Positions 39,442 through 62,386 of a stretch of 64,000 nt of DNA are shown here, piece by piece (the stretch's first letter is position 1; each line of letters opens with the position of its first letter). The notes beneath the pieces are model-generated. The model made no database searches and was not told the origin of the DNA. It saw nothing but the letters and a program-made list of their open reading frames with translations. Location of the stretch: the NCBI RefSeq assembly GCF_006783905.1, contig NZ_VFPE01000001.1:62001-126000 (forward strand), read 5' to 3'. A program made the position numbers and the translations under genes. This DNA is from Microbacterium kyungheense. Its GTDB lineage: Bacteria > Actinomycetota > Actinomycetes > Actinomycetales > Microbacteriaceae.

Positions 39442-39475
39442 AGCGGGTGGGGCCGGCCCGAGGGCCCCACCCGCT
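39442..39475 (+). terminator. hairpin terminator after the GH59 gene
   Basis: Perfect 13-bp arms AGCGGGTGGGGCC (39442-39454) and GGCCCCACCCGCT (39463-39475) with an 8-base loop lie just after the stop. Confidence 0.7.
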
Positions 39476-39551
39476 GACCTCGTGGCGCGTCGCCGGGCAT
39501 AGACTCCCGACCGGTCGCGACGTCGCGGCCGTCGAACGAAAGCAGAAGAGT

Positions 39552-40487
39552 ATGAAGACCATCGGCCTCGCAGGCATCGATCGCCCCGCACCCGAGGTGG
39601 TGCTCGGCCTGATGCGGATCCAGGACCTCGACGACGACGCCGTGCAGGAGCTGGTGCACACGGCCCGCGATGCCGGCATCGACTTCATCGACCACGCCGA
39701 CATCTACGGCACAGAGCTGCACGGCTGCGAGCGGCGGTTCGCCGAGGCCATGCAGCTCAGCCCGTCCGAGCGCGAGCAGCTCACGATCCAGACCAAGGCC
39801 GGCATCGTGCGCGAGGGGCCGTACTTCGACTTCTCGTACGAGCACATCGTCGAATCGGTCGAGGGATCGCTGCGCGCCCTCGACACCGACTACGTCGACA
39901 TCCTGCTGCTGCATCGTCCCGACGCGCTCGTCGAGCCCGACGAGGTCGCGCGGGCCTTCGACGACCTCGAAGCCGCGGGCAAGGTGCGCGCCTTCGGGGT
40001 CTCGAACCACACGCCGCGTCAGATCGATCTGCTCAAGAAGTCGGTGCGCCAGCCCCTCGTCGCGAATCAGATCCAGCTGTCCATCACCCACGCGCCGTCG
40101 ATCGCGCAGGGCGTGGCGGCCAACATGCAGGGCGAGGACCAGTCCCTCACCCTCGACGCCGGCGGCATCGTGGACTACTGCCGGCTGCACGACATCGCCA
40201 TCCAGGCGTGGTCGCCGTTCCAGGCCGGCTTCTTCACCGGCGTCTTCCTGGACTCGCCCGACTACCCCGAGCTCAACGCCGTGATCGACCGCCTCGCCGC
40301 GGAGTACGACGTGCCGCCCATCGCGATCGCCGTGGCGTGGATCACGCGCCACCCGGCGATGATGCAGGTCGTGCTCGGCACCACGACGCCCGAGCGCGTG
40401 CGCGGGGCGGCGCAGGGCTCCGACGTGACCCTCACGCGGGCCGAGTGGTACGAGCTGTTCCGCGCCGCGGGCTATCGCGTGCCCTGA
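39552..40487 (+). CDS. aldo/keto reductase
   Basis: A 311-residue NADP-linked aldo/keto reductase: VLGLMRIQDLDDDAVQELVH, the catalytic HADIYG (Tyr) with a Lys in QTKAGIV and a His in LLLHRPDAL, and KVRAFGVSNHTPRQIDLLKK. It lies between the GH59 gene and the sugar-acid dehydratase, so a role in sugar oxidation or reduction is likely. An AGAAGAG site precedes ATG 39552. No signal peptide. Confidence 0.88.
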   Translation: MKTIGLAGIDRPAPEVVLGLMRIQDLDDDAVQELVHTARDAGIDFIDHADIYGTELHGCERRFAEAMQLSPSEREQLTIQTKAGIVREGPYFDFSYEHIVESVEGSLRALDTDYVDILLLHRPDALVEPDEVARAFDDLEAAGKVRAFGVSNHTPRQIDLLKKSVRQPLVANQIQLSITHAPSIAQGVAANMQGEDQSLTLDAGGIVDYCRLHDIAIQAWSPFQAGFFTGVFLDSPDYPELNAVIDRLAAEYDVPPIAIAVAWITRHPAMMQVVLGTTTPERVRGAAQGSDVTLTRAEWYELFRAAGYRVP

Positions 40488-40498
40488 GGCCTCGGCCG

Positions 40499-40635
40499 GC
40501 GGCATCCACTCTCCGCGGCGGGTCGGTGTCGCCGGCTCGACAGGTCAACCGGCGTTGCGCAGGAGGAACGGGCTGGATCGGTCCTGTTGAGGTGCGGTTG
40601 ACCTGTTTAAGGGGTGAGGGATGCCGGGGCCGCGG
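40499..40635. repeat. GGTTGACC composite palindrome, copy 1
   Basis: Inner perfect 12-bp arms ACAGGTCAACCG (40540-40551) and CGGTTGACCTGT (40595-40606), with loop start GCGTTGCGCAGGAGG, are framed by an outer GGCATCC (40501-40507) and GGGATGCC (about 40618-40625). This is one of three copies in the window. Confidence 0.7.
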
Positions 40636-40672
40636 CGTGGGGAAGTCACCGAGTCGCGGCATCCACTTGCTC

Positions 40673-40790
40673 CGGGTTGCCGTCGGTGCCGTCTGTTCAA
40701 CAGGTCAACCGGCGTTGCGCAGGAGGGATCTCCGCGATTCGGCCTGTGGAAGTGCGGTTGACCTGTTGAACGGGTGAGGGATGCCGGGGG
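40673..40790. repeat. GGTTGACC composite palindrome, copy 2
   Basis: Inner perfect 17-bp arms GTTCAACAGGTCAACCG (40695-40711) and CGGTTGACCTGTTGAAC (40755-40771). The loop again begins GCGTTGCGCAGGAGG. Outer GGCATCC/GGGATGCC arms frame it. Longest-stemmed of the three copies. Confidence 0.72.
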
Positions 40791-40913
40791 CCGCGGTCGG
40801 CGCCCGAAGCAGACCACTTGTTACCGGGCCGGACTTCGGGCGCGCGTCGCTGGAGGATCGGGGAGGATGGCGGAAGGCCCGCGGTTGCGCGCGGGCGGAA
40901 CGAGAGGTCGACG

Positions 40914-42626
40914 ATGACGCTTCGCAGTTCGCAGTGGTATGCGGGGGATGACCGGAACGCCTACATCCATCGGGCGTGGATGCGCCGCGGTGTGCCGGAT
41001 TCGGCGTTCACCGGGCGTCCGCAGATCGCGATCGCGAATACCGCGTCGGACCTGACGCCGTGCAATGCGCACCTCACGGAGGTGGCGCAGTCGGTGAAAA
41101 ACGGCGTGTACGAGGCGGGCGGGATCCCGTTGGAGCTGCCGGTGGTGTCGCTGGGTGAGACGAACGTGCGGCCGACGGCGATGCTGTGGCGCAACATGGC
41201 GGCGATGGCCACCGAGGAGATGCTGCGGGCGAACCCGATCGACGGGGTGGTGCTGCTGGGCGGGTGTGACAAGACGATCCCGTCGCTGCTGATGGCGGCG
41301 GCCTCGGTCGATCTGCCGGCGGTGGTGGTGCCGGGCGGGCCGATGCTCACCGGCCACTTCCGCGGCGAGGCGCTCGGGTGCGGCACCGACGTGTGGCGCC
41401 TGTCCGAGGAAGTGCGGGCGGGGACGCTGAGCGAGACGATGTTCTTGAAGTCCGAGTCGTCGATGATCCGCTCCAAGGGGCATTGCAACACGATGGGCAC
41501 CGCGTCGACGATGGCGCTGGTGGCCGAGGCGCTCGGGACGGTGATCCCGGGGCTTGCCGGCACGCCGGCGGCGGATGCGCGGCTGCTGGAGGCGGCGCAC
41601 GACACGGGCCGGTTCGCGGTTCAGCTGGTGGCAGAGGATCGGCGCCCGTCGTCGTTCCTGACGAAGGGGAGCTTCCACAACGCGATCGTGGCGTTGGCGG
41701 CGATCGGCGGGTCGACGAACGCGGTGGTGCATCTGCTGGCGATCGCGGGGAGGCTGGGCATCGACCTGTCGATCGACGACTTCGACCGGATCGGCGCGGA
41801 GGTGCCGCTGCTGGTGAATCTGCAGCCGGCGGGCAGGTATCTGATGGACGACCTGTTCCGAGCGGGAGGGTTCCTGGCGGTGCTGCGCGAGGTGCGCGAC
41901 CTGCTCGACCCCGAGGCGCTGACCATCACGGGGAAGCCGCTGGTGGACTACCTCGACGATGCCCGGATCTGGGATGCCGACGTGATCACGCCGCGCGAGT
42001 CGCCGTTGCAGCCGCACGCCGGCATCTCGGTGCTGCGCGGGTCGCTCGCGCCCGGCGGGGCGCTGATCAAGCCCGCGGCGGCGTCCCCGCACCTGTTGAA
42101 GCACCGGGGCCGGGCGGTGGTGTTCGACTCGATCGAGGACTTCCACGCCCGCATCGACGATCCCGACCTCGACATCGACGAGAACAGCGTGATGGTGCTG
42201 CGCGGCTGCGGGCCGAAGGGGTATCCGGGCATGCCGGAGGTGTCGAACATGCCGTTGCCGACCAAGCTGCTGGAGAAGGGCGTGCGGGACATGGTGCGCA
42301 TCTGCGACGGCCGCATGTCGGGCACCGCGTACGGGACGGTCGTGCTGCACGTGACCCCCGAGGCCGCCGCCGGGGGACCGCTCGCCCTCGTACGCACCGG
42401 GGACTGGGTCAGCCTGGATGTGCGTGCGCGGCGGCTGGACCTCGACGTGCCTGCCGATGAGCTCGCCCGCCGCACCCCCAACGCTGCGACCGTCGACGGG
42501 TACGCGAACCCGTCCCGCGGGTGGGAGCGGCTCTACGTCGACCACGTGCTGCAGGCTGACCGCGGCGCCGACCTCGACTTCCTCGTCGGTGCGTCCGGGG
42601 CGGAGGTCACCCGTGAATCCCACTGA
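40914..42626 (+). CDS. IlvD/Edd-family dehydratase (probable sugar-acid dehydratase)
   Basis: A 570-residue dehydratase of the IlvD/Edd family. Iron-sulfur cysteines are in [16 protein letters not shown] and the [11 protein letters not shown] region. Other markers are [60 protein letters not shown] and [20 protein letters not shown]. The Edd/arabonate-type (pentonate and galactonate) members have this length and context; classical IlvD is usually with valine genes. Zinc alcohol dehydrogenase downstream and an aldo/keto reductase upstream suggest a sugar-acid pathway. ATG 40914 follows GAGAGG. Confidence 0.85.
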
Positions 42627-42653
42627 CCCACAGCTGCTCCGGCGGGCGGGCCG

Positions 42654-43661
42654 GTGAGGGCCCTCGTCATCACCGCACCCGGTCGTGCCGAGGTGCAGGA
42701 CGTCGCCGAGCCGGCCGCCGAGCCCGGCGAGGTCATCGTCGAGGTGCGTCGGGCCGGCATCTGCGGCACCGACGTCGAGTTCTTCACGGGCGAGATGGCG
42801 TACCTGCATTCCGGGCACGCCGCCTATCCGATGCGCATCGGCCACGAGTGGATGGGCACGGTGACGGCGGTCGGAGCCGGCGTCGACGGCTCATGGATCG
42901 GACGCCGCGTCACGGGCGACACGATGCTCGGCTGCGGCGCGTGCCGTCGCTGCGAGCACGGACGGCAGCACGTGTGCGATCAGCGGCTCGAGCTCGGCAT
43001 CCGCGGCGGCAAGGCCGGAGCGCTCGCTGAGCGCGTCGCGACGCCGGCGCGGTCACTGCACCGGCTTCCTGACACGGTCGACGACGCGATGGGCGCGCTG
43101 GTCGAGCCGGGCGGCAACGCGTTCCGCGCGGTGCAGGGCGCGGCACTGCGCCCCGGTGACCGGTGCCTCGTGCTGGGGCCGGGCACGATCGGCCTGCTGT
43201 GCGCGCTGTTCGCCCGCGCTGCCGGTGCCGAGGTGCACCTCCTCGCCCGCGACGCCGGCTCCGCGGCGTTCGCACGATCGCTCGGGTTCGACGACGTCTG
43301 GACCGACGGCGACCTGCCCGGGCTGCCGTGGGACGCCGTGATCGAGGCATCCAATTCCCCGGCGCTGCCGGCCCGCGCGCTCGACCTCGTCGAACCGGGC
43401 GGGCGCGTCGTCTACATCGGCCTCGCCGGTACGCCGAGCCTCATCGACACGCGCGATCTCGCCCTCAAGGACGTGACGGCCGTGGGCGTGCTGAGCGCGT
43501 CACCGGGTCTCGCCGGCACCATCGCCGCGTACGCCGCGGGCGTCGTCGACCCGCGCCCGCTCGTCGCCGCGACCGTCGCGCTCGACGACCTGCCCGCGAT
43601 CCTCGCCGGCTCGCGTCCGTCCGGTGCGGGGCCGGGCCCGAAGTTCCACGTCACCATGTAG
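42654..43661 (+). CDS. zinc-dependent medium-chain alcohol/sugar dehydrogenase
   Basis: A 335-residue MDR enzyme. Catalytic zinc ligands: Cys in GICGTDVE, His in GHEWMG and Glu in LVEPGGNAF. Structural zinc Cys: GCGACRRCEHGRQHVC. The Rossmann motif is LVLGPGTIGLLCALFARAAG. Similar to sugar (threonine/galactitol/arabinose) dehydrogenases. It starts at GTG 42654, 27 bases after the dehydratase stop; no better start is seen, and a GGCGGGCC stretch is the only upstream candidate for a ribosome site. Confidence 0.85.
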   Translation: MRALVITAPGRAEVQDVAEPAAEPGEVIVEVRRAGICGTDVEFFTGEMAYLHSGHAAYPMRIGHEWMGTVTAVGAGVDGSWIGRRVTGDTMLGCGACRRCEHGRQHVCDQRLELGIRGGKAGALAERVATPARSLHRLPDTVDDAMGALVEPGGNAFRAVQGAALRPGDRCLVLGPGTIGLLCALFARAAGAEVHLLARDAGSAAFARSLGFDDVWTDGDLPGLPWDAVIEASNSPALPARALDLVEPGGRVVYIGLAGTPSLIDTRDLALKDVTAVGVLSASPGLAGTIAAYAAGVVDPRPLVAATVALDDLPAILAGSRPSGAGPGPKFHVTM

Positions 43662-43702
43662 GCGAGGCGCCGCATGACCGAGCCGTCGGGTCGGGCCGGG
43701 TG

Positions 43703-43812
43703 GCGGCATCCCTCGCCTGCTTTCGACAGGTCGACCGCTGTTGTGCAGGAGGAATGCGGCGCGAGCGTCCTGCGCGGGCGCGGTTGACCTGTGGGAGGAG
43801 CGGGGATGCCGC
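43703..43812. repeat. GGTTGACC composite palindrome, copy 3
   Basis: Outer perfect 10-bp arms GCGGCATCCC (43703-43712) and GGGATGCCGC (43803-43812). Inner arms ACAGGTCGACCGC (43726-43738) and GCGGTTGACCTGT (43780-43792) differ at one position, which would be a G-U pair in RNA. The loop begins TGTTGTGCAGGAGG, as in copies 1 and 2. It separates the convergent dehydrogenase and exporter genes. Confidence 0.7.
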
Positions 43813-43815
43813 GGC

Positions 43816-44838
43816 TCACGCCAGCCGGCCGGTGAAGGCCAGCGCCACCAGCGCCGTCGCCGTGACCAGCAGCGACAGCACCGCGCCGAGAGCGAGGGGA
43901 CGCCAGCCGGCGCGGCGGATCGCGCCGAGATCGGTCGACAGGCCGATGCCGGCGAGCGCCGCCGCGATGAGGACGCCGCTCACCGCGAGCAGTCCGGCGC
44001 GCACGGGCTCGGCGATGAGCCCCGCCGTGTTCGCCAGGGTCATCACGACGAACCCGACGATGAACCAGGGCACCAGCGTGGCGATGCGCCACGGATGACG
44101 AAGCAAGCCGCCCTCGCCCGGGCGCGGCTGACGGAGGGCGAGCCCGACGCTGATCGGCACGATCATGAGCGTGCGGACGAGCTTGACCACGACGGCGAAG
44201 CCGAGCGCGCCCGCGCCGAACGTCGTCGCCGCCGCGACCACCGAGCTGGTGTCGTTGATCGCGGTGCCCGCGAGCAGTCCGAAGGCGTGGGCATCCAGTC
44301 CCAGCGCGTGCCCGAGGAGCGGGAACGCGACCGCCGCGGCGATGTTGAACACGAAGATCGTCGACACGGCGTACGCGATCTCGCCGCTCGTCGCCGCGAT
44401 CACGGGTGCGACGGCGGCGATCGCCGAGGCGCCGCAGATGCCGGTGCCCACCCCGATGAGGGTGCGCAGCCGCCCGTCGATCCGCATGGCGCGGCCGAGG
44501 CCCCAGGCGGCGACCAGGCACACGGTCAGGGTGCTGAGCATCACGGGCAGCGATTCGGCGCCGACGGCGACCACGTCCTGCAGCGACAGCTGCGCCCCGA
44601 GCAGCACCACGGCCACCTGCAGCAGCCACTTGCCCGAGAAGGCGATGCCCGGCTGCGTGCGCGCGCCCGGTCGGCGGATCGCCGCCACGGAGACGCCGAT
44701 CGCGATCGCGGGCAGGGCCGTGCCGACGACCGGAGCGGTCCGGCCCACCGCGAGCGACGCGGCCGCGATCGCCACGCACAGCAGCACTCCCGGAACGACG
44801 GCGGCGGTGCGGCGGGCGAGTGGGACGGCGTGGGGCAT
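43816..44838 (-). CDS. YeiH-family putative sulfate/sulfite exporter
   Basis: A 340-residue membrane protein with about 10-11 helices, of the YeiH/PSE family (DUF340-like): GIAFSGKWLLQVAVVLLGAQ, LIGVGTGICGASAIAAVAPV, ATSGEIAYAVSTIFVFNIAA, GLLAGTAINDTSSVVAAATT. The proteins are thought to export sulfate or sulfite-related anions. It is divergent from a LysR gene, like E. coli yeiH and yeiE, where YeiE is a sulfite-responsive LysR. ATG 44838 was chosen; an upstream frame (45087) has no conserved sequence. Confidence 0.85.
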   Translation of the reverse strand: MPHAVPLARRTAAVVPGVLLCVAIAAASLAVGRTAPVVGTALPAIAIGVSVAAIRRPGARTQPGIAFSGKWLLQVAVVLLGAQLSLQDVVAVGAESLPVMLSTLTVCLVAAWGLGRAMRIDGRLRTLIGVGTGICGASAIAAVAPVIAATSGEIAYAVSTIFVFNIAAAVAFPLLGHALGLDAHAFGLLAGTAINDTSSVVAAATTFGAGALGFAVVVKLVRTLMIVPISVGLALRQPRPGEGGLLRHPWRIATLVPWFIVGFVVMTLANTAGLIAEPVRAGLLAVSGVLIAAALAGIGLSTDLGAIRRAGWRPLALGAVLSLLVTATALVALAFTGRLA

Positions 44839-44870
44839 CCTTACACGTTCGGCGATCGGCCGGCTCCCCG

Positions 44871-44897
44871 GTATCCCCACAGGATGCGTAGGGGTAC
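44871..44897. promoter_or_regulatory. LysR-type inverted repeat between the divergent yeiH-like and lysR genes
   Basis: GTATCCCC (44871-44878) and GGGGTAC (44891-44897) form an interrupted palindrome 12 bases apart, in the 78-base spacer. A TAGGCT -10-like hexamer (about 44903-44908) lies just before GTG 44917, so the LysR mRNA may be leaderless. The layout suits LysR autoregulation and control of the exporter. Confidence 0.45.
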
Positions 44898-44916
44898 AGG
44901 CGTAGGCTGTATCTCC

Positions 44917-45831
44917 GTGGGATACGTACCCGATGTCGAGGCGCTGCGCCTGCTGCGCGCCGTGTTCGAGACGGGCTCGATCTCGGCCGCGGCGCGGGAG
45001 CGCGGCGTCACGCAGCAGTCCGCGTCGGCCCGGCTGCGGGCGATGGAGCGTTCGCTCGGGCTCGAGCTGCTGCTGCGCTCGCCGCACGGCGTGACCGCCA
45101 CTCCGGCCGGCGAGGTGTTCGCCTCGTGGGCCGACGACCTGCTACACGCCGCCGACCGGCTCGAGACCGGTGTCGATCAGCTGCGCGGCGAATCAGGGCG
45201 CGAGCTCGCCGTCGCCGCCAGCCAGACCGTCGCCGCGCATCTGCTGCCGCATTGGCTCGTCACCCTGCGGACGACGCAGCAGGCGGCCGGGCGCCCGCCG
45301 ACGGAGGTGCGCCTGCTCACCGCGAACAGCGCCGACACCTGCGAACGGGTGCGCAGCGGTGCGGCATCCATCGGGTTCATCGAGAGTCCCGAGCCGCTGA
45401 CCGACCTGTGGAGCCGGGTCATCGCCCGGGACGAGCTCGTGGTCGTGGTGGCGACCGACCACCCGTGGGCGTCACGCGACGCGGTCGGCCTCGACGAGGT
45501 CGCCGCCACCGGCCTCGTGGCGCGCGAACGCGGCAGCGGCACGCGTCGCGCGTGGGAACTCGTCGTCGAGGGGCGACTCGGCCGCCCACCCGCAGAACCC
45601 GCCATCGTGCTCGCGAACGCCGCGGCGATCCGGTCCGCCGTCGCGGGCGGACTGGCGCCGGCCGTGCTGAGCAGCCGCGTCGTCGCCGACGATCTGCGCC
45701 TCGGCCGCCTCGCGCGTGTGGCGGTCGCGACCGAGCCGATCCTGCGGCCCATCACCGCGATCTGGCGCGGCACCGCCCGCGATCTCACCCCTGTCGCGCG
45801 GGAGCTGCTGGAGGCCGCCCGCGCGGCATGA
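44917..45831 (+). CDS. LysR-family transcriptional regulator, YeiE/CysB-like context
   Basis: A 304-residue LysR-type regulator. N-terminal helix-turn-helix: VEALRLLRAVFETGSISAAA, RERGVTQQSASARLRAMERS, LGLELLLRSPHGVTATPAGE. The effector domain (about 90-300) has VLANAAAIRSAVAGGLAPAV near the ligand cleft. Divergent from YeiH, suggesting control by sulfite or another sulfur signal. GTG 44917 is used. It may also control the monooxygenase operon on its far side; this is inference. Confidence 0.87.
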   Translation: MGYVPDVEALRLLRAVFETGSISAAARERGVTQQSASARLRAMERSLGLELLLRSPHGVTATPAGEVFASWADDLLHAADRLETGVDQLRGESGRELAVAASQTVAAHLLPHWLVTLRTTQQAAGRPPTEVRLLTANSADTCERVRSGAASIGFIESPEPLTDLWSRVIARDELVVVVATDHPWASRDAVGLDEVAATGLVARERGSGTRRAWELVVEGRLGRPPAEPAIVLANAAAIRSAVAGGLAPAVLSSRVVADDLRLGRLARVAVATEPILRPITAIWRGTARDLTPVARELLEAARAA

Positions 45832-60704: not shown

Positions 60705-62386
60705 ACGGCGGCATCCACGCGGATGACGGGCCGGTCGCCGCCGGGGCCGTGCACATGGTTGGCGCGCGCGACGAACGTGCGCAGGCCGCGCAGGTCGGCC
60801 AGGAGCGGGTCGGTGAGCTCGACGTCGTTGTCTTCGAACCGCACCGTGCCGTGGACCGGGGCGCTGCCCGCCGCGATGCCGGGAGCCACCTCGAGCACGC
60901 CCGCCGTGACGTCGCGGAACGTGTTGCCGACGATCGTCACGTCGGTCACCGGACCGGACTCCCACCAGTCCGACGCGTCGGCGGCGATCTGGATGCAGGG
61001 CATCGCGATGCTCTCGAAACGGCACCCCTCGATGCGCACCGGCCGCCGTGTGGTGACCAGGATCGCGCGCGTCGGGACGCGCCGGAACGTGCACCCGGTG
61101 ATCGACACCTCGGGCGTGCGCGTGACGTTCTCGGCGGCGAGCATGCCCTCGCGCGCAGCCGCGTGCACCTCGGGCGGCAGCGGATCGGCGAGGCCCACGC
61201 GGGTCGGCGCAGAGGCCGACGCGAGGTCGCGCCCGGTGGGGCCGGTGACGTCGTGGACGGACGTGGTGTGCACCGGCTGCAGCGTGCGCCGGTCGACGAG
61301 CTCGATCACATCGCCGTCGCCGAAAGCGGCGAATCCCGCGGTCTCACTGTGGCGGTACTCCAGCGTCAGGCGCGTGGGCTCCGCCTCGGTGACCGCGAGG
61401 TAGGTTCCGTGCACGTTGACGGGATCGTCGTGCGGTCCGTCGAACTCGCAGCCGCGGATGTCGACGCGTCCACGCACGCCTGAGCACTGCACGAAGTCCG
61501 CGAACCCGGCGGTCACGCGGCCGGTGCCTTCGGGCGCGCGGAAGACCACGCCGTCCAGCGTGACGTCCGCGCTGTTCTGCGCCAGCAGCCCGAATCCGTG
61601 CAGGAAGTCCACCCGCAGGCGGCGCAGCGCCACGTCGGCGGAGTCGAGCACGAGCATGCCGGGGTGGTCCCGATCGGTCTCGCGCAGCTGGTAGACCAGG
61701 CCGCGGTCGCCGGGGGAGGATGCCGTCGCGTACGAGATCCGCAGGGTCCAGGCATCCAGGCGCACCACGTCGACGACCTCGTCGAAGAGCGGGCACGGCT
61801 CGCGCCGCACGCGGCCCGTGGCCGGATCGCAGACCTGGCTGTAGGCGAGTGCGTTGCGGCCGGACCAGTACCGCACCCCCGCGTAGGGCGAGAGTTCGGA
61901 GAGCCACACGACGTCGGTGCCGTCGATCGTGAAGTCGTTCTGCTGCGGCACGGTGAGCACGCGCCAGGCGCCGTCCGCGTCGACACCGGTGTCGGCGACC
62001 GTCACATCGATCACGGTGGGCACCGCCCAGTCCACCTCGAGCCCCTCCACCGTGACGCCGCGGCCGTCCACGACGGCCAGTGCGGTCTGCCGGCCGTGCA
62101 CGACGAGCCGTGCGCCGGCGGCGATGACGGTGAGATCCCGCACGTCGTCGAGCAGCATCCCGATCGACTTCGTCGTGTAGCGGGGATCGATGCCGACGGT
62201 GTTCGAGACGAACAGCTCACGGTGGATCGACGTCTCGGGCCACACGTGGAAATCCCCCGGCGGCAGCAGCAATCGGGCGCCGGGGCCCGCTGTGCGCGCG
62301 GCGCCGATCGCGCCCTGGAGGGCTTCACCTGCGTCGGGCGCGCCCGGCCGCCAGCCGAGATCGCGCACGTCGATGAGAGCGGTCAC
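60680..62386 (-). CDS. GH110-like alpha-1,3-galactosidase (right-handed beta-helix)
   Basis: A 568-residue beta-helix protein resembling GH110 alpha-galactosidases. The catalytic-type acids lie in FDGPHDDPVNVHGTYL (Asp320, Asp321). Other markers are LLLPPGDFHVWPETSIHREL, FVSNTVGIDPRYTTKSIGML, GVTVEGLEVDWAVPTVIDVT and DFLHGFGLLAQNSADVTLDG. No signal peptide is seen, so it may act on imported oligosaccharides. GTG 62386 is chosen over 62401 because a GAGGAGG site precedes it at the right distance. Divergent from sugar permeases at 62506, which may share its control region. Confidence 0.78.
   Translation of the reverse strand: MTALIDVRDLGWRPGAPDAGEALQGAIGAARTAGPGARLLLPPGDFHVWPETSIHRELFVSNTVGIDPRYTTKSIGMLLDDVRDLTVIAAGARLVVHGRQTALAVVDGRGVTVEGLEVDWAVPTVIDVTVADTGVDADGAWRVLTVPQQNDFTIDGTDVVWLSELSPYAGVRYWSGRNALAYSQVCDPATGRVRREPCPLFDEVVDVVRLDAWTLRISYATASSPGDRGLVYQLRETDRDHPGMLVLDSADVALRRLRVDFLHGFGLLAQNSADVTLDGVVFRAPEGTGRVTAGFADFVQCSGVRGRVDIRGCEFDGPHDDPVNVHGTYLAVTEAEPTRLTLEYRHSETAGFAAFGDGDVIELVDRRTLQPVHTTSVHDVTGPTGRDLASASAPTRVGLADPLPPEVHAAAREGMLAAENVTRTPEVSITGCTFRRVPTRAILVTTRRPVRIEGCRFESIAMPCIQIAADASDWWESGPVTDVTIVGNTFRDVTAGVLEVAPGIAAGSAPVHGTVRFEDNDVELTDPLLADLRGLRTFVARANHVHGPGGDRPVIRVDAAVRDRGSCR

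Follow-up and report, generated by a model that had tools for sequence, protein, structure and literature searches.

A palindromic DNA repeat dispersed through Microbacterium genomes brackets a putative AbiEi-type/DUF559 nuclease gene and may be its cognate site

In a 64,000-nucleotide stretch of the Microbacterium kyungheense genome (the window; positions 62,001 to 126,000 of contig NZ_VFPE01000001.1), three imperfect, intergenic palindromes are members of a DNA repeat family of about 67 bases that is scattered through Microbacterium genomes. At one conserved chromosomal site, copies of this repeat bracket a gene, hereafter the hub gene, whose product is a putative nuclease combining an AbiEi-type winged helix with a DUF559 domain. 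We propose that the palindrome is probably the cognate site of this resident nuclease and that it spreads as a non-autonomous passenger, much as REPINs do with their RAYT enzymes. This proposal, which is drawn from sequence comparison, is favored because the repeat both brackets the nuclease gene and is scattered elsewhere, many sister nucleases have palindromic brackets of their own, protein and repeat similarities correlate, a word recurs within the arms, and the nuclease residues are invariant.

A covariance model built from 41 copies recovered 14 copies at E<1e-10 in the M. kyungheense genome (G000, 4.28 Mb; G-numbers denote genomes and L-numbers fetched loci), along with one marginal copy (2.5e-4) and two weaker ones. 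A sequence-only reading of the window had suggested such a search of the genome and its relatives and had allowed for the outcome that only local copies from one tandem duplication exist; given the 14 strong copies, this is not the case. Repeat matches at E≤0.001 were found in 49 of 247 Microbacterium genomes, with up to 18 candidates scored per genome and palindromes counted on both strands. A scan of GTDB with one genome per species and one fixed pattern returned 51 stretches, 45 from Microbacterium and 6 from unrelated taxa; 43 of the 51 held a two-armed copy, all of them from Microbacterium and none among the 6 from unrelated taxa. The species recovered include M. jejuense, M. timonense, M. 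trichothecenolyticum, M. yannicii, M. helvum and M. ureisolvens. The dispersed copies are mostly extragenic, with 103 of 117 distinct sites in the fetched loci lying off and 14 on a gene called by a crude gene caller, and their distribution over the genus is patchy. Sites with two neighbors fell into 20 divergent, 40 tandem and 31 convergent gaps (12 more lay at locus edges), compared with 38, 54 and 27 among 119 control gaps. The suggestion of a new miniature mobile element thus came close, in that the repeats are dispersed, mostly extragenic and patchy, and bracket a nuclease gene as REP/RAYT loci bracket theirs. Tandem arrays were observed in M. timonense, with six copies at L059 70-807 and four at L066 1186-1715, in steps of about 127-157 bp.

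Comparison of the flanks of the copies led to the hub site. Its neighbors, identified by Pfam, are genes for a serC-like class-V aminotransferase and a dtxR-like iron-dependent repressor, and the gene enclosed there by palindromes is some 280-300 codons long. The bracketed gene is present in M. kyungheense (C2:195080-195910), M. yannicii, M. trichothecenolyticum, Leaf288, M. timonense and others. Two hub proteins match PF04480 (DUF559) above its curated cut-off (28.4 and 27.2 bits vs 20.6) and 9 of 9 members match it at E≤0.001, while the N-terminus lies near PF13338 (AbiEi_4), below the cut-off in the protein tested and at E≤0.001 in 2 of 9 members. An AlphaFold2 model built on four sequences found no match at E≤0.001 with Foldseek alone; in a second look at the Foldseek list with VIA-align, the C-terminal part of the model aligned to the homing endonuclease I-Bth0305I (Z 9.9, root-mean-square deviation 3.3, 91 residues aligned) and to NGO0050 (Z 9.6), in keeping with a putative nuclease of the EDxHD/Vsr fold. 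I-Bth0305I dimerises on a target of nearly 60 bp (PMC3943268), and the EDxHD family is said to include DUF559 (PMC9403480). Residues E189, D215, D227, H231, H242 and D243, which presumably correspond to the EDxHD active-site positions, are invariant in 44 of 44 aligned proteins, so the nuclease chemistry appears to be kept. No NCBIfam family matched the protein, and PADLOC returned only a weak AbiEi match. Two distant relatives, in Tsukamurella loci, carry the database name AbiEi antitoxin; no clear palindrome bracket was found on both sides of either, and none of the neighbors in these loci or at the hub site is annotated as AbiEii, though no search was aimed at AbiEii. We rejected the repeat as part of a plasmid or phage: it had no match in the plasmid or phage records searched, the nuclease protein is nearly absent from them (2 of 72,556 plasmid records and 1 of 50,697 phage records), and no relatives were confirmed in viral contigs.

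The gene and the repeats occur together. Among the 247 genomes, 11 have the hub gene type at ≥480 bits (one with an internal stop; the next paralog scores 417), and all 11 gave 11 to 18 repeat matches, 18 being the number scored. Of the 236 gene-less genomes, 38 had any repeat match and 2 (G043 and G180) had at least 11. Fisher tests of gene against repeats, in which relatedness is ignored, gave 2e-17 for at least 11 matches and 7e-9 for any match. A deeper count was made in 39 chosen genomes: the 11 gene-bearing genomes had 28, 12, 26, 33, 32, 41, 13, 25, 8, 30 and 18 matches, 10 gene-less genomes with earlier matches had 17, 8, 2, 8, 8, 18, 6, 11, 3 and 9, and 18 gene-less genomes without an earlier match had 0 in 17 cases and 2 in one. 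M. jejuense (G043) and M. helvum (G213) are related to M. kyungheense but lack the gene at the hub site, so their copies are likely orphan repeats. In one genome (L187, G115:C20) the hub gene has an in-frame TGA and the genome keeps about 12 copies (25 matches on both strands).

DUF559 paralogs elsewhere in Microbacterium are also bracketed by palindromes. We required both flanks to score ≥19/28 and the two palindromes to match each other with an alignment score of ≥30. In the first 50 loci, 36 passed, including 27 of 39 non-hub paralogs, whereas none of 170 control genes, drawn from the window and the GTDB-scan loci, did so (Fisher 6e-25 for the paralogs against the controls); on flank scores alone, 5 of the 170 controls passed. 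The palindromes match within a gene and usually differ between paralogs: the best match of the 5' palindrome was its own 3' palindrome in 33 of 50 loci; the observed mean was reached in none of 10000 permutations. One genome (G049) has three paralogs with three palindrome spellings (L288, L303, L309). A second set of ten paralog loci, from genomes of interest, gave 5 passes, and 5 of 17 loci in other genera passed as well (L291, L295, L299, L304, L305), which makes the bracketing wider than Microbacterium though not universal. A second repeat class, CGAGGAGATGKCG..GAGGA, is also dispersed. It matched in 19 of 247 genomes, with 1 match for the reversed control pattern, and 12 of 30 places checked scored ≥21 as palindromes, many of the others showing no clear palindrome; the palindromes include copies far from a nuclease gene in G094 and G152.

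The palindromes share an internal architecture. In the hub clade the arm word recurs 19 nt inward, with 28 of 40 half-sites sharing 5 of 6 letters (z 14), and in the paralogs it recurs 18 nt inward in 75 of 114 half-sites (z 18), whatever the spelling, the two halves of one palindrome not being independent in these counts. Other shifts from 16 to 21 were seen in only 0 to 8 half-sites. A wider scan of the hub half-sites gave lesser peaks at 11 and 22 (z 5.7, 4.2), and palindromes from control windows peaked at 15 and 21 (z 4.4, 8.4) with little at 18 and 19 (z 2.4, 2.3). Since the word recurs in most half-sites, an element holds up to four words. In the 44 loci compared out of 50, similarity between nuclease proteins was correlated with similarity between their repeats (rho 0.40, a value reached by none of 1000 permutations); the six left out were a broken gene and loci without a palindrome scoring 20, and the correlation persisted in the 34 non-hub loci (rho 0.37). 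In sliding windows it was strongest at about residues 81-140, with its maximum at residues 101-140 (0.44).

The history of the hub site was traced in genomes in which the neighboring genes have no unit between them (G043, G241, G238, G001, G180 and G204). By eye, neither palindrome is present at these empty sites, and the breakpoints in G043 are 10 and 17 bp beyond the two palindromes. A further candidate, L099, was set aside as its alignment was not clean. In M. kyungheense, a near-identical direct repeat of 48-49 bp lies on either side of the palindrome-gene-palindrome unit (L109 ~1440-1500 and ~2660-2720; G000:C2), and the same sequence is single-copy in M. jejuense. This hints at what insertion with a long target duplication, or a later precise loss, would leave, and it stays a hint because the flank repeat is lacking at the other loci; the score of an apparent second case, L224, was explained by another repeat copy. 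The flank duplication at insertion boundaries that the sequence-only reading had proposed to look for is therefore not general at the 50 nuclease loci, the sites at which it was looked for. At the same aminotransferase-repressor site, G101 (L330/L263, G101:C33) has a truncated DUF559 gene and a palindrome of another spelling, which favors an old resident that has been lost repeatedly.

If the palindrome is the cognate site of the nuclease, a dimer, or a dimer of dimers, would bind the duplex site of about 67 bp and nick or cut at a site copy or at an empty target. New copies would then arise by strand transfer or by repair templated on another copy, local slippage could produce tandem arrays, and the gene would be inherited mostly vertically and sometimes lost, leaving orphan repeats. 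The binding, cutting and copying of the repeats by the nuclease are what we infer from the sequence patterns, and several observations weigh against them. No movement of repeats was seen in the genomes compared, and a flank duplication was found at only one of the 50 nuclease loci, that of M. kyungheense. These loci were the best matches to the hub profile and not a random sample, and paralogs missed the bracket in 12 of 39, 5 of 10 and, in other genera, 12 of 17 cases. Repeat counts overlap between genomes with the gene (8 in G116) and without it (17 in G043, 18 in G180), and the repeats of G180 are not accounted for by the two of its DUF559 loci that were looked at. The hub gene sits between intact palindromes, unlike a homing endonuclease that inserts into its own target. 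Finally, the structural model is weak overall, with a predicted local distance difference test score (pLDDT) of 58; the alignment of its C-terminal part to Vsr (Z 7.7) is tied with unrelated rows, as is that of its N-terminal part to AbiEi (Z 7.1, root-mean-square deviation 1.4, 52 residues aligned), which is also tied with other winged helices.

The main rival is an operator or regulon, which we regard as unlikely, in which the protein, by its AbiEi-like winged helix, binds the palindromes and so represses its own gene, the dispersed copies regulate or insulate their neighbors, and the nuclease domain does something else. The N-terminal fold is compatible with the AbiEi antitoxin in the tied alignment just described and in the PF13338 matches of 2 of 9 members, the half-sites resemble protein sites, and the word spacing is fixed. 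However, palindromes lie on the 3' side of the gene and not just on the 5' side, and gaps of all three kinds hold dispersed copies (20 divergent, 31 convergent, 40 tandem). Among the matches listed, the sites shared, other than the nuclease site, belong to close relatives. The 3'-side palindromes, the multi-copy arrays in M. timonense and the active-site residues invariant in 44 of 44 proteins weigh against regulation alone.

A hairpin acting in a transcript, as a structured RNA or terminator, is a much less probable account, and the variation between the arms speaks against it. In 116 copies both arms, read inward, have a common consensus, TTCRACAGGTCAACCGnGCTTCnRCAGGAG. These copies were found with patterns that fix the word positions and leave the variable positions free. 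The paired fraction in 41 copies was 80.2% vs 81.7% after partner shuffling, and each of five pairing measures was reached by at least 475 of 500 shuffles, so there is no covariation beyond shuffles; the stated pairing does beat slid versions (80.2% vs at most 44% of cells), as any palindrome's would. Among the 116 copies, arm agreement was slightly higher than chance (0.737 vs 0.719; 0 of 2000 shuffles). This excess comes from the conserved columns of the words, in which both arms of a divergent subfamily have changed in step (z up to 7.4), whereas in the spacer and other variable columns the arms vary independently (z -1.6 to 2.0). G-T/A-C mismatches had no strand preference (1.08 vs 1.01 ± 0.11; 476 of 2000 simulations as high). 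Given the independent spacers and the lack of wobble bias, the variation fits recognition of double-stranded DNA by a protein at two half-sites and not an RNA. The predicted hairpins are strong, folding better than shuffles on the plus strands of the three window copies (z -4.7, -5.0, -8.6), but they do so on the minus strands too (z -4.7, -3.6, -5.7), as expected of any long palindrome. One window copy lies between converging genes and convergent gaps are slightly favored (31 of 91 vs 27 of 119 controls), yet 20 of the 91 placed sites are in divergent gaps, and no T run longer than 3 follows the window copies as read from the sequence. No Rfam family matched in the window at the gathering score. 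On the lack of Rfam match, covariation and wobble bias, and on the divergent-gap sites, we rejected a structured RNA, a terminator and a small RNA, the first of which the sequence-only reading had offered as its other possibility.

About as improbable is a miniature inverted-repeat transposable element, or what decay has left of an insertion sequence of the ordinary kind ending in ACAGGTCAACCG repeats. Either would suit the dyad-symmetric ends, dispersed copies, patchy distribution and direct duplication beside the M. kyungheense unit, but the recurrent linked gene is a DUF559 nuclease, the word recurs inside each arm unlike in simple terminal repeats, flank duplication at nuclease loci is not general, the repeat has no plasmid or phage copy, and no transposon turned up, the only transposase search being that for PF01797.

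The pairing looks like an undescribed analogue of the REP/RAYT pairs of repeat and enzyme, also called REPtrons, in which REP sequences go with the enzyme TnpA-REP. In both, an enzyme gene on the chromosome lies between short extragenic palindromes that also occur dispersed elsewhere, the DUF559 gene here taking the place of the RAYT gene, and in both the palindromes form inverted doublets; in a REP GI doublet the first residues of the invariant 16-mers are 71 bp apart (PMC3116915). RAYT enzyme and REP repeat, too, have co-evolved (PMC8266576). The enzyme here is an EDxHD/Vsr-fold DUF559 protein and not an HUH tyrosine transposase, the variation fits duplex sites and not a folded single strand, and the word recurs 18-19 nt inward in most half-sites. 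A REPIN/RAYT system proper was ruled out, since PF01797 (the IS200/IS605-like Y1 HUH transposase of RAYTs) matched in 0 of 13 genomes while control genomes matched in 5 of 14, and the consensus of the 116 copies has no GTAG-type tag beside the hairpin. Dispersed palindromes without GTAG or CGTC tags have been described by Di Nocera et al. 2013 (PMC3733652), who ask whether repeats of this untagged sort have particular protein partners; their paper contains none of the words Microbacterium, Actinobacteria and Clavibacter. With the EDxHD homing endonuclease I-Bth0305I (PMC3943268) the hub protein shares its predicted C-terminal fold, the PF04480 match and a very long target, but no intron or intein host was seen, the N-terminus is an AbiEi-type winged helix, intact palindromes flank the gene and site copies lie all over the genome. 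The AbiEi antitoxin of type IV toxin-antitoxin systems resembles it in the N-terminal winged helix and in the name of the two distant relatives, and differs in that a nuclease domain follows here and no AbiEii toxin gene is among the neighbors seen, in which no aimed search for one was made. A homing endonuclease normally destroys its own site by inserting, its gene often lying in an intron or intein.

Within the window, the sequence-only reading had noted three palindrome copies at about 40499, 40673 and 43703, and all three are present, the second starting at about 40657 and not at 40673. The repeat proper spans 40534-40612 in copy 1 (core 40540-40606; G000:C1:102534-102612, E 5.0e-12), 40694-40772 in copy 2 (core 40700-40766; G000:C1:102694-102772, E 4.7e-15) and 43720-43798 in copy 3 (core 43726-43792; G000:C1:105720-105798, E 1.5e-14), with no strand assigned. 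The arm ACAGGTCAACCG and its reverse complement occur 6 times in the window with up to one mismatch vs 0.28 expected, and in copy 1 the CAGG/CCTG words lie at 40541, 40560, 40583 and 40602. What had been taken for a conserved loop, GCAGGAGG, is mostly a second, inner pair of arms in which GCAGGA pairs with TCCTG(Y) (Y being T or C); its supposed Shine-Dalgarno-like or anti-Shine-Dalgarno-like character dissolves, GCAGGA being an arm word and the GG poorly conserved in the 116 copies. The G-U change of copy 3, read as compensated, is a one-sided change tolerated as wobble with no double change. The outer GGCATCC/GGATGCC arms do exist at 40501-40507 and 40619-40625, 40658-40664 and 40779-40785, and 43705-43711 and 43804-43810, but they are incidental: we ruled them out as part of the element, as this 7-mer is over-abundant in the window (84 occurrences vs about 14 expected from dinucleotides) and no part of the dispersed family. 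The same 7-mer also recurs inside many DUF559-linked palindromes; codon use or a recognition motif could explain its abundance. We also considered an integron attC site, whose core sites GTTCAAC/GTTGAAC resemble, and dropped it since the copies do not keep the AAC/GTT triplet.

Copies 1 and 2 arose as a local tandem duplication with a step of 160 bp, its units at 40522-40629 (carrying copy 1) and 40682-40789 being 82% identical in the window self-comparison (repeat family D1); the equivalent site has two palindrome copies in M. jejuense and one in M. helvum. These copies lie between an aldo/keto reductase gene (39447-40487, plus strand; PF00248) and a dihydroxy-acid dehydratase (ilvD/edd) family gene (40914-42626, plus strand, start codon assumed; PF00920, PF24877). 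Copy 3 lies between the converging genes for a zinc alcohol dehydrogenase (42654-43661, plus strand; PF08240, PF00107) and a PF03601 protein (conserved hypothetical protein 698; 43816-45087, minus strand). Elsewhere in the genome, just left of another copy (L014 ~1420-1495, G000:C4), CGAGACGAAA and TTTCGTCTCG form an inverted pair that may be another intergenic repeat of the genus.

Our literature search, which took in no preprints and few subscription papers, found no account of DUF559-linked palindromes among the papers listed. More tentatively, and with the balance of our own judgment slightly against it, we suggest that actinomycetes may hold a second, independently evolved class of co-replicators, made of AbiEi helix-turn-helix/DUF559 (EDxHD) nucleases and palindromes, often several per genome and with private specificities. 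Each nuclease would recognize, as duplex DNA, a palindrome of four words some 60-75 bp long, through a specificity region in the middle of the protein (about residues 81-140), and copy it into intergenic DNA by break and repair and not by single-strand transposition. DUF559, a domain of unknown function that is also named in databases after the AbiEi antitoxin, gains a concrete partner in the private palindrome beside many of its genes. The dozens of enzyme-site pairs with readable sites and a predicted specificity region make specificity testable by binding and cutting assays. If the partnership does replicate DNA, it would achieve by unrelated means, as a second solution, what REPINs and RAYTs achieve, and would offer an independent system in which to ask why a palindrome-spreading enzyme is retained as a resident of the cell.

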